The translations under genes were made by a program, and so were the position numbers. From contig NZ_JADYWL010000002.1 of NCBI RefSeq assembly GCF_015864825.1, positions 62,001-126,000 of the forward strand: DNA of 64,000 nt, written 5' to 3'. Below are positions 51,349 to 60,676 of the stretch, piece after piece; the stretch's first letter is position 1, and every line of letters begins with the position of its first letter. A model generated the notes under the pieces. The model was not told the DNA's origin. It ran no database searches and saw only the letters and a program-made list of their open reading frames with translations. Origin of the DNA: Psychrobacter sp. NZS113 (GTDB lineage: Bacteria; Pseudomonadota; Gammaproteobacteria; Pseudomonadales; Moraxellaceae).

Positions 51349-52002
51349 TTATACAATCAAACTATCTACTAGAAGTTGAATGCTAGTGTCTAACGCATTA
51401 TTAGCGAATTTCTTATTTTTTAAACTATGATTACAAACCGCTTCCGTTTGTGTAGAAAAATCAGAATAGTGCTGAGTGACGGCCCAAATATGAAAAATTA
51501 AATGAATGGCAGAAACGGACTTAATCTTGTTATCTGCAATCCATTCGTCAATCACTGCCACTTTTTCTCGAACCAAGGACTTCAAAGGTCCTTTTAATAC
51601 GGCCATCAAGTGAGGGGCGCCTTGCATAATCTCTAATGCATACAGTCTTGATGCTGCAGGCGATTTCTTTGAAACTTTATATTTCTCTTCAATGTAGTTT
51701 ATAAGGGCCTTTCTTGGATCTTGGTTGACATTCATCTCGTTCAAAGGTGATAGCCACTTGCTAAGCACCCTTTCTAAAACGGCAACATACAGAACCTCTT
51801 TACTGTCGAAGTAGTAGAATATATTCGATTTAGATATATGAGCTTCTTCAGCGATTTTTTCCATTCGCGCCCCATTTAATCCTTCTTGAGAGAACACAAT
51901 CAATGCAGCATTGATGATGTGTTCTTTCTTCTTCAATATCTTTGAACTCGTTTCTATCTCTTCTTTTAGCACGTATTCTCTCAATGTATGGTTCCTGATC
52001 AT
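51349..52002 (-). CDS. rutR: TetR-family regulator RutR
   Basis: A 217-residue TetR protein. The HTH reads VFSQEGLNGARMEKIAEEAHISKSNIFYYFDSKEVLYVAV. The ligand domain has SRLYALEIMQGAPHLMAVLKGPL and HLIFHIWAVTQHYSDFSTQ, signatures of RutR, which binds uracil/thymine and releases the rut promoter. It is divergent from rutA. The ribosome site is poor. A dyad just upstream (CATGTAAA-N6-TTTACATG, 52008-52029) may serve autoregulation. Confidence 0.9.
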   Translation of the reverse strand: MIRNHTLREYVLKEEIETSSKILKKKEHIINAALIVFSQEGLNGARMEKIAEEAHISKSNIFYYFDSKEVLYVAVLERVLSKWLSPLNEMNVNQDPRKALINYIEEKYKVSKKSPAASRLYALEIMQGAPHLMAVLKGPLKSLVREKVAVIDEWIADNKIKSVSAIHLIFHIWAVTQHYSDFSTQTEAVCNHSLKNKKFANNALDTSIQLLVDSLIV

Positions 52003-52211
52003 AAAGTCATGTAAACCTAATTTTACATGATAATTAAGTCAATTTAGAAAAAGGTTAAATCAACCGAGTGCATATACCCACTGGTTGGTCAAAACAGACA
52101 TGTCGGCAGCATTTAATCACGCAGCTGTATCGAGTTTATAAGGTATTTGACTATAACGATTTGGTATCAAAAAACCCCTCTTTTTTACTCATTCAACATC
52201 ATTTTTATCAA

Positions 52212-52290
52212 TATGCACTATTAAAAACTTTCTGCACTATTTTACAACATTCTGCACTATTTTATAACATCCGCACTATTTTCATGCATG
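52212..52290 (+). promoter_or_regulatory. Four tandem ~20-bp elements with NtrC-like half-sites
   Basis: TGCACTATT (last copy CGCACTATT) recurs at 52214, 52233, 52253 and 52272, spaced 19-20 bp; the two central units (52231-52250, 52251-52270) are nearly identical (TCTGCACTATTTTACAACAT, TCTGCACTATTTTATAACAT). TGCACTA-type motifs are halves of NtrC enhancer sites. They lie ~100-180 bp upstream of the predicted sigma-54 start, on the same face of the helix. Confidence 0.6.
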
Positions 52291-52294
52291 TTTT

Positions 52295-52310
52295 TAAACC
52301 ATATGGTCTA
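52295..52310. promoter_or_regulatory. RutR-like operator
   Basis: TAAACCATATGGTCTA matches the E. coli RutR box TTGACCA-N2-TGGTCAA (from memory) at 11 of 14 defined positions. It lies between the tandem elements and the sigma-54 promoter, 140 bp upstream of rutA. Confidence 0.6.
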
Positions 52311-52363
52311 AAAATTTTTGCATATAAAAACGGTAAGTATTTGATAAATAACAATTAATTAAT

Positions 52364-52381
52364 TTGGCATAAATTATGCTA
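52364..52381 (+). promoter_or_regulatory. Sigma-54 (-24/-12) promoter of the rut operon
   Basis: TTGGCATAAATTATGCTA contains GG and GC exactly 10 nt apart, as required for sigma-54, and matches TTGGCA of the -24 element fully; the -12 element is ATGCT instead of TTGCW. The predicted start is near 52391, ~60 bp before rutA. Confidence 0.7.
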
Positions 52382-52449
52382 CGTAAAAAACATGAAATAA
52401 TCTTTATTTCTTTTATAGCTCTTTCTTCCTCAAACTTATAGGTGAAATT

Positions 52450-53553
52450 ATGGAAATAGGTATTTTTTGTCCGATTGGCAACAATGGCTGGTTAATTTCA
52501 AAAAACGCGCCGCAGTACAAGCCAACATTTGAGCTTAATAAGCAAATTGTGCAACGTGCTGAGCACTATGGTTTCGATTTTGCGCTCTCGATGATTAAGC
52601 TACGCGGCTTTGGCGGGGAGACGGAGTTTTGGGATTATAACCTTGAAAGCTTCACTTTGATGGCAGGATTGGCTGCGGTCACGTCCAAGATAAAAATCTA
52701 TGCCACATCGGCGACGTTGGTCATGCCACCTGCAATCGTAGCAAGAATGGCATCGACGCTTGATAGTATCTCAAACGGACGTTTTGGATTGAATGTCGTG
52801 ACTGGCTGGCAAGAAGCAGAATATGGACAAATGGGAATGTGGCCAGGCGATGATTATTTTGGTAAGCGCTATGACTACCTATCTGAGTATGTCCAGATTT
52901 TAAGAGATTTGTGGGCGACAGGCCAATCTGATTTGAAGGGTGAGTTCTTCCAGATGGATGACTGTCAAGTGAAGCCCATTCCAAAAGCAGATATGAAGAT
53001 TATCTGTGCGGGTCAATCAGATACAGGGTTAGCATTTTCTGCAAAACATGCTGATTACAACTTTGTCTTTGGTAAAGGTCTAAACACACCTACCGCTTAT
53101 GCCGGTATCAATGACCGCTTAAAGGTACACACGGATAAGACGGGCCGTAATGTTCCGACCTATGTTCTCTTTATGGTCATTGCAGATGAGACCGATGAAA
53201 AAGCCCAAGCAAAATGGCAATCATACAATGAAGGTGCGGATTTTGAAGCCATTGATTGGTTGCAGTCACAAGGCGGTAAGGACAAAACATCGGGCAAAGA
53301 TACCAATATTCGCCATATGGCCTCAAGCGTTTCACCAGTCAATATTAATATGGGTACGCTGGTCGGCTCCTTTGAAAATGTCGCCAGCATGTTAGACGAA
53401 GTTGGTGAGATACAAGGTACTGATGGCGTCTTACTTACTTTTGATGACTTCGTGCAAGGTGTTGAAGATTTTGGCAGTAAGATTCAGCCCCTTATGAAGA
53501 GCCGTATCAATGTCGATACCCCAGTTGCCAGTCAAGCTGTCAGCGAAGCCTAA
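52450..53553 (+). CDS. rutA: Pyrimidine monooxygenase RutA
   Basis: A 367-residue flavin-dependent luciferase-family enzyme. Seen: [20 protein letters not shown] at the N-terminus, [30 protein letters not shown] and [21 protein letters not shown], all RutA hallmarks. It uses FMN reduced by RutF to open the uracil/thymine ring, giving ureidoacrylate peracid. AGGTGAAATT precedes the ATG. First gene of the rightward operon. Confidence 0.97.
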
Positions 53554-58462: not shown

Positions 58463-58501
58463 AACATACAAAAGCAAATATAAATGCAAATGGTGGATTT
58501 T

Positions 58502-59203
58502 ATGAATATCAATACAATACCAGAAATCATTGAAGATATTAAAGCAGGCAAGATGGTCATAATCATGGATGATGAGGATCGGGAAAATGAAGGTGACCTG
58601 ATTATGGCAGCCAGTTTGGCCAAACCTGATGATATTAACTTTATGATCACACATGCCAGAGGTTTGGTTTGTTTGACCTTGACCTCCGAGCGTTGCAAAA
58701 AATTAAAACTACCTCTCATGTGCAAAGACAACCAAGCACCTTACAGTACAAATTTCACCGTTTCCATTGATGCAGCAGAAGGGGTAAGTACCGGAATATC
58801 AACGGCAGACAGAGCTCAGACCATTAGAACTGCCGTGTCCCAAGACGTTACCTTTGATGATGTTGTAACCCCAGGGCATATTTTTCCATTAGTGGCTAAA
58901 GAAGGTGGTGTTCTAGAACGCGCTGGACATACTGAGGCAGGTTGTGACCTAACGAGACTGGCTGGTTTAGAACCTGCTGCGGTTATTGTAGAAATCATCA
59001 ACCAAGATGGTGAAATGGCTCGTAGAAATGATCTGATGAAATTCGCCGATACTCATAATCTAAAGGTCGGCACCATAGACGCGTTAATTAAATATATTAA
59101 ATCTCAAGAGACCGTTGAAAATATAGATAAAATCGAAAATTTCGAAGAAACCGTAACGTATGAATATGATGAAAGCGATGAGCGTACCGTTGAATTGATT
59201 TAG
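58502..59203 (+). CDS. ribB: 3,4-dihydroxy-2-butanone-4-phosphate synthase RibB
   Basis: A ~233-residue single-domain DHBP synthase making the four-carbon unit of riboflavin from ribulose-5-phosphate. Seen: IIMDDEDRENEGDLIMAA with the catalytic acidic residues, GVSTGISTADRAQTI, and GHTEAGCDLTRLAGL. There is no GTP cyclohydrolase II half. An acidic C-terminal tail (YEYDESDERTVELI) is extra. Three in-frame ATGs exist (58484, 58490, 58502); homology favours 58502, though its ribosome site is weak. Its place inside the rut operon suggests it raises flavin supply for RutA, RutF and RutE. Confidence 0.92.
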   Translation: MNINTIPEIIEDIKAGKMVIIMDDEDRENEGDLIMAASLAKPDDINFMITHARGLVCLTLTSERCKKLKLPLMCKDNQAPYSTNFTVSIDAAEGVSTGISTADRAQTIRTAVSQDVTFDDVVTPGHIFPLVAKEGGVLERAGHTEAGCDLTRLAGLEPAAVIVEIINQDGEMARRNDLMKFADTHNLKVGTIDALIKYIKSQETVENIDKIENFEETVTYEYDESDERTVELI

Positions 59204-60079: not shown

Positions 60080-60676
60080 ATGACTGATTCCCTATCGTTA
60101 TCTCCAAAAGATCTAGATCAACTGTTTGGTAAGGCCAGATCCTTCAACGCTTGGCAAAAAAAAGACGTGCCAGATACACTAATTGAAGAGATCTATCATT
60201 TAGTTAAAATGGCGCCTACCTCGGCCAATTGTTCACCTGCACGTTTTGTATTTCTCCGATCTGATGACGCTAAAGCGCGCTTAGAGCCAGCACTGTCATC
60301 AGGTAATATCGAAAAAACAATGACTGCACCTATCACAGTGATTGTTGCTCATGATAATGAATTCTATGAGCAACTTCCTAAATTATTTCCACATACGGAT
60401 GCCAGATCATGGTTTAACTCTAGCCCTGAACTCATACAAAAAACGGCGTTTAGAAACAGTTCTATGCAAGCGGCGTATCTAATCTTGGCTTGTAGAGCCT
60501 TGGGTTTAGATACTGGCCCTATGTCTGGATTTAATAATGAATTGGTGGATAATACCTTTCTTAAAGATAGCAAATGGACTTCAAACTTACTCATTAATAT
60601 AGGTTATGGTCAAGAAGATCAATTGTATAGCCGTCTCCCAAGGTTAGACTTTGATGAGGCTTGTCAGATCTTATAA
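60080..60676 (+). CDS. rutE: Malonic semialdehyde reductase RutE
   Basis: A 198-residue nitroreductase-family FMN protein. Seen: [41 protein letters not shown] and [15 protein letters not shown], characteristic of RutE/YdfG-partner reductases. It reduces malonate semialdehyde to 3-hydroxypropionate with NAD(P)H. It is the last gene of the operon. The product could be re-oxidised by DddB from the DMSP cluster. Confidence 0.93.

Follow-up and report, generated by a model that had tools for sequence, protein, structure and literature searches.

A predicted nitrogen-responsive, RutR-gated sigma-54 promoter with three same-facing NtrC boxes upstream of the Psychrobacter rut operon

The region upstream of rutA in Psychrobacter sp. 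NZS113 raises the question of how this bacterium controls its rut operon, and of which activator would use a series of short repeated units lying there. Positions given below refer to the analyzed stretch of 64 kb (the window). A spacer of 447 bp (52003–52449) separates rutA (52450–53553, plus strand; TIGR03612, 689.3 bits against a cut-off of 498.3) from a divergent TetR-family gene (51349–52002, minus strand) that is termed rutR-like: its best model is that of RutR (TIGR03613, E 6.7e-65), and its product remains under the cut-off of this model (218.7 against 368 bits) and under a further cut-off (207 against 230). The NCBIfam names assigned on the plus strand of the operon are rutA, rutB, rutC, rutF, a RutG-like permease (RutG is the best match with 704.8 bits, under the cut-off of 758.65), a CoA-acylating methylmalonate-semialdehyde dehydrogenase, a RibB-type DHBP synthase and rutD, after which a gene for a RutE-type malonic semialdehyde reductase is found (60080–60676, plus strand). 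The RibB-type gene (58484–59203), encoding a 3,4-dihydroxy-2-butanone-4-phosphate synthase that provides a riboflavin precursor, is flanked within the operon by the mmsA-like gene and rutD, an order also seen in all five of the other Psychrobacter genomes checked. RutA and RutF belong to flavin-dependent families, and local flavin supply is thus a possible reason for the presence of this gene.

Analysis of the spacer reveals a succession of recognizable elements. Nearest to rutA, the plus-strand sequence TTGGCATAAATTATGCT (52364–52380) forms a predicted sigma-54 −24/−12 promoter with GG at 52366–52367, ten intervening bases and GC at 52378–52379, which would place the transcription start at about 52391. 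The strict pattern has no second match in the window, but shuffling the whole window also produced a match in 17 of 100 cases; when the intergenic region alone was shuffled, the pattern appeared in 4 of 5000. The palindrome TTTTTAAACCAT/ATGGTCTAAAAA with the core AACCATATGGTC (52291–52314, centred at about −87), the arms of which are 92% complementary, is a predicted RutR operator. No other place in the window matches the E. coli-like pattern exactly, a single one doing so with 1–2 mismatches, and among 5000 shuffled versions of the intergenic region the core appeared once. The sequence TAAGTATTTGATA (52334–52346), which reads WATCAANNNNTTR on the minus strand, corresponds to the IHF consensus, with one such site in the intergenic region against a mean of 0.11 in 2000 shuffles; this putative IHF site, identified by sequence match, lies between the enhancer and the promoter. 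The initial annotation had described tandem units of about 20 bp, a RutR-like box and the GG-N10-GC element, and all of them are found where it had placed them; the IHF match was absent from it and completes the layout.

The units themselves begin with TGCAC or CGCAC and occur as TGCACTATT at 52214, 52233 and 52253 and as CGCACTATT at 52272, in steps of 19, 20 and 19 bp. The word GCACTATT is present in seven copies in the 64-kb window, four of them in this array. It is the clustering, and not the window-wide number, that exceeds chance: the total of seven is only mildly above expectation (shuffle mean 3.29; at least seven copies in 4 of 100 shuffles), whereas three or more copies never arose when the intergenic region (52003–52449) was dinucleotide-shuffled 5000 times. 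Judged from their sequence, the units correspond better to NtrC boxes of 17 bp in which the left half is strong and the right half degenerate (TGCAC-N7-TAACA, and CGCAC-N7-ATGCA in the proximal unit). The consensus of the E. coli NtrC box is TGCACCAnnnTGGTGCA (PMC8743547, section 20), and the Psychrobacter rut units (TGCAC-N7-right half) share its 17-bp size and its spacing; because their right halves are degenerate, they are not full consensus palindromes.

This reading is supported by a motif derived from a different gene. A palindromic 17-bp position weight matrix was built solely from Psychrobacter glnA promoters and then scanned over the window. The glnA gene was present in 40 of 40 genomes and 30 loci were used; after removal of one locus without a frame (L170) and of the 4 among 29 upstream sequences that had no sigma-54 match, 25 promoters with 72 sites remained for training. 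The best match in the whole window is the middle unit, TGCAC-TATTTTA-TAACA (52253–52269, plus strand; 14.7 bits), centred at about −129 from the predicted start; the second is the upstream unit, TGCAC-TATTTTA-CAACA (52233–52249, plus strand; 12.9 bits; about −149), and the fourth is the proximal unit, the almost palindromic CGCAC-TATTTTC-ATGCA (52272–52288, plus strand; 11.7 bits; about −110). All three are conserved and predicted to be NtrC boxes, and the match of rank 3, at position 821, has no relation to rut. When the columns of the motif were permuted (n = 300), no permuted motif had three of its top four matches in the rut intergenic region, one had two and ten had one. The most distal unit, TGCACTATTAAAAACTT (52214–52230, plus strand), consists of the strong half-site without a recognizable right half, scores −0.3 (rank 395) and is a doubtful NtrC site. 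Thus, the four units announced by the initial annotation do exist as four copies of the word, and three of them behave as boxes.

The same annotation had regarded the units as head-to-tail half-sites rather than palindromes. Taken literally, this would mean true single half-sites contacted by NtrC monomers, or by dimers through one half only, with TAACA serving as an AT-rich spacer. The strong halves indeed all face the same way, 19–20 bp apart, and near-palindromes of the type TGCAC-N7-GTGCA (at most one mismatch) show no enrichment genome-wide, with 55 occurrences against 56 in the control. Such a chance-level result fits asymmetric boxes, yet it tells against a simple palindrome model and can count against the NtrC reading. 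The matches found at the expected partner position, which are descriptions and not probabilities because the rows are related sequences, fall on both sides: in Psychrobacter rut the mean match to GTGCA is lower at the canonical gap of 7 (1.97) than at gaps 2 and 4 (2.06), whereas among 31 anchored 32-mers of Psychrobacter rut a terminal CA occupies precisely the partner position in 71%, the top value among the tested gaps (next 42%, at gap 14), and the canonical gap gives mean GTGCA matches of 3.15 of 5 for glnA (next best gap 1.45) and of 2.02 for Acinetobacter rut (next 1.62). Moreover, an alignment of the unit ends in 13 Psychrobacter sequences, with L046/L152 left out as near-identical to the window, shows the right half of the middle unit to be TAACA in 13 of 13, beside 3-bp linkers that vary. 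All 12 sequences that possess the upstream unit (L045 has two units only) show YAACA at its end, and the proximal unit ends in xTGCA, making it a near-palindrome, in 12 of 13, with ATACA in the remaining one. At the glnA sites, too, the right halves are in part full and in part degenerate. Lone half-sites are hence improbable in our view, and the asymmetric 17-bp NtrC box is retained as the more suitable description of three of the four units.

The rut operon is patchy in Psychrobacter, rutA having been found in 16 of the 105 genomes searched. The 28 rutA upstream sequences comprise 16 distinct ones; 14 complete sequences remained after L165, whose start was not located, and the truncated L155/L049 and L057 had been dropped. 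All 14 keep the RutR box, the strict IHF pattern and the sigma-54 element WTGGCAT-N6-TGCT, and all carry units in steps of 19–20 bp, four in 2 sequences, three in 11 and two in 1 (P. fozii), in agreement with the proposal that GG-N10-GC and the array should recur in Psychrobacter rut promoters. The fourth, distal unit is limited to the genome of the window and to the near-identical L046/L152. Spacing from the proximal unit through the RutR box and the IHF site to the sigma-54 element is nearly constant, and the sequences differ from one another beyond the upstream edge of the array. A RutR homologue is divergent from rutA in 11 of 13 loci, the other two loci being incomplete. This conservation also bears on the idea that rut is transcribed mostly from a sigma-70 promoter, the sigma-54 elements being relics. 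One sigma-70-like match does exist (52241–52270), but it falls within the array, in a region holding fewer such matches than its shuffles (1 versus a mean of 3.5), and the fact that all 14 Psychrobacter upstream sequences retain the sigma-54 element, together with pattern matches in 45 of 46 Acinetobacter loci, makes a relic very improbable.

We further screened the genome for proteins that could act on such a sigma-54 promoter. The Sigma54_activat family gives six matches. One of them (L039) is NtrC, exceeding both NCBIfam cut-offs (644.1 against 558.6 bits and 627 against 620 bits); its C-terminal part is similar to the NtrC DNA-binding domain of known structure (1ntc; E 2.1e-15), and by our reading a fragment of an NtrB-like kinase lies upstream of it. 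As translated, this NtrC (L039:796–2583) has 596 residues against 463–469 positions in the NCBIfam NtrC models, and a long linker joins its receiver and AAA+ domains. The second is RtcR (L041; 691.7 against 650 bits), and the third (L040) is a response regulator under the NtrC cut-off (368.8 against 558.6 bits) that we read as PilR-like from its kinase-response-regulator pair. The three further matches were set aside, their sequences being read as AAA+ proteins of the ClpA/ClpB/ComM type. The genome encodes one RpoN, and its recognizable sigma-54 activators thus appear to be NtrC, RtcR and the PilR-like protein only. Several features of an NtrC-dependent sigma-54 promoter are recognizable at the sequence level, namely the GG-N10-GC element, three predicted upstream boxes and the genes for NtrC and RpoN.

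The initial annotation had also considered another enhancer-binding protein, and use of the array by the PilR-like protein, by RtcR or by an activator independent of sigma-54 has to be weighed. Pairs of GCACTATT at similar spacing exist elsewhere in the genus without visible sigma-54 context, and the word is for this reason not specific to NtrC. However, the motif that recovers the rut boxes was derived from glnA promoters, and the choice of activators in this genome is restricted to the three named above, so that this suggestion finds little support and its likelihood is very low. As to the distribution of the word, pairs of GCACTATT were found in 35 of 100 Psychrobacter genomes. Among the matches listed, 25 represent one 29-bp element, GCACTATTT.TGTAA...GCACTATT, which recurs in many Psychrobacter genomes and has a repeat step of 21 bp. 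In the three contexts inspected (L009, L012 and L016, about positions 1501–1529) it is intergenic and adjoins a gene read as mutM, not rut, and no sigma-54 element was obvious near it by eye; the genus-wide pairs were not counted in favour of the rut array. A separate intergenic repeat, GCACTATTAATTTTAT, occurs in tandem with a 16-bp period in genome G078 (L034:1501–1604).

Loose sigma-54 matches in the genome amount to 69 distinct ones, of which four only are preceded by at least 20 bits of NtrC sites: those of glnA, rut, codB and a 2OG-Fe(II) oxygenase gene, glnA not being independent because it is the training gene. None of about 3000 sampled background positions reached 20 bits. Upstream of codB, encoding a cytosine permease (L166, L167), the sigma-54 element is accompanied by two NtrC-like boxes 21 bp apart with their strong halves outermost; codB was found in 2 of 60 genomes searched, and comparison gained little there. 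The 2OG-Fe(II) oxygenase gene lies beside an integrase-like gene and combines a sigma-54 element with two NtrC-like boxes that face the same way at a distance of 22 bp (L228:1400–1516), which makes it a candidate further NtrC target with a head-to-tail pair.

Comparison with other bacteria shows the rut layout to be shared. In E. coli K-12, rutABCDEFG is preceded by the same order of elements, from NtrC-like sites through a RutR box to a sigma-54 promoter, with rutR divergent: two NtrC-like 17-mers lie 21 bp apart (−141 and −120), followed by the RutR box (−98) and the sigma-54 element CTGGCATCCGCTTTGCA. The two sites score low on the glnA motif, which comes from Psychrobacter (4.1 and 6.1 bits), and the IHF pattern has no match in the E. 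coli rut upstream region. Whereas E. coli has two NtrC-like sites, Psychrobacter has three or four units with all strong halves facing the same way. The sigma-54 site of E. coli rut figures in a ChIP-seq list (PMC4591121), and its expression is described as NtrC-dependent and RutR-repressed (PMC10891134). Among the 46 distinct Acinetobacter rut loci, in which the remaining sigma-54 element (L076) was recognized by eye, the IHF pattern is matched strictly in 18 and under relaxed conditions in 37, 30–32 bp ahead of the sigma-54 element; a RutR-like palindrome (at least 6 of 8 pairs) is present in 19, and a RutR homologue in the examined locus DNA in 13. When sites are counted from a glnA-motif score of 3 bits upward, 25 of the 46 show one at the position that corresponds to the middle box of Psychrobacter, its centre lying between −130 and −132. 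Only 13 possess two sites spaced by exactly 20 bp, often with strong halves outermost and facing each other, and other loci have single sites or different spacings; as a rule, Acinetobacter has one or two sites, as opposed to the array of Psychrobacter. Many Acinetobacter rut promoters are laid out, as far as their sequences tell, in a fashion related to that of Psychrobacter. The presence of sigma-54/NtrC control with a RutR box ahead of rut, as originally suggested, is well supported by these comparisons across Psychrobacter, Acinetobacter and E. coli. Comparative genomics had earlier predicted NtrC control for Moraxellaceae and regulons of RutR for Proteobacteria (PMC5343134); in the accessible part of that source, the account of the Moraxellaceae NtrC regulon mentions neither Psychrobacter nor rut together with NtrC. 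A literature search covering mostly papers free of subscription brought up no publication that deals with NtrC sites of Psychrobacter rut.

Taken together, it is highly probable that 52214–52380 constitutes the sigma-54 promoter of rut, responsive to nitrogen and gated by RutR, with NtrC on three boxes and a bend at the IHF site, and this control region most likely activates the genes for uracil breakdown in response to nitrogen scarcity. In that condition, dimers of phosphorylated NtrC would bind 52233–52249, 52253–52269 and 52272–52288, boxes predicted to lie on one face of the helix since they are 20 and 19 bp apart. IHF at 52334–52346 would bend the DNA and allow the assembled NtrC to reach sigma-54 RNA polymerase at 52364–52380, which would start transcription at about 52391. 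RutR, bound at 52291–52314 between enhancer and promoter, would block productive contact as long as pyrimidine is lacking, and its ligand, which in E. coli is uracil, would release it. The predicted control of rut is thus E. coli-like, with one modest twist: the three putative NtrC boxes, asymmetric and two helical turns apart, all face the same way. We propose, as a speculation that is rather unlikely to hold, that three same-facing boxes on a two-turn lattice pre-align three NtrC dimers, and that boxes so asymmetric, each of them weak on its own, give a sharp rut response only at high levels of phosphorylated NtrC. Three dimers make up one AAA+ hexamer; if the dimers are pre-aligned in this way, the active ring would assemble directly on the DNA, and the flipped strong halves in Acinetobacter would then point to selection on box position and not on orientation.

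The analysis extends to Psychrobacter, at the level of single predicted sites, the wiring of pyrimidine catabolism known from E. coli, in which nitrogen status and pyrimidine are both required. Because the boxes of this lineage are often asymmetric, a palindrome search would miss them. Finally, the natural variety of these promoters, with two, three or four units and with strong halves same-facing or opposed, may serve as a test set for the roles of spacing and orientation in NtrC assembly.
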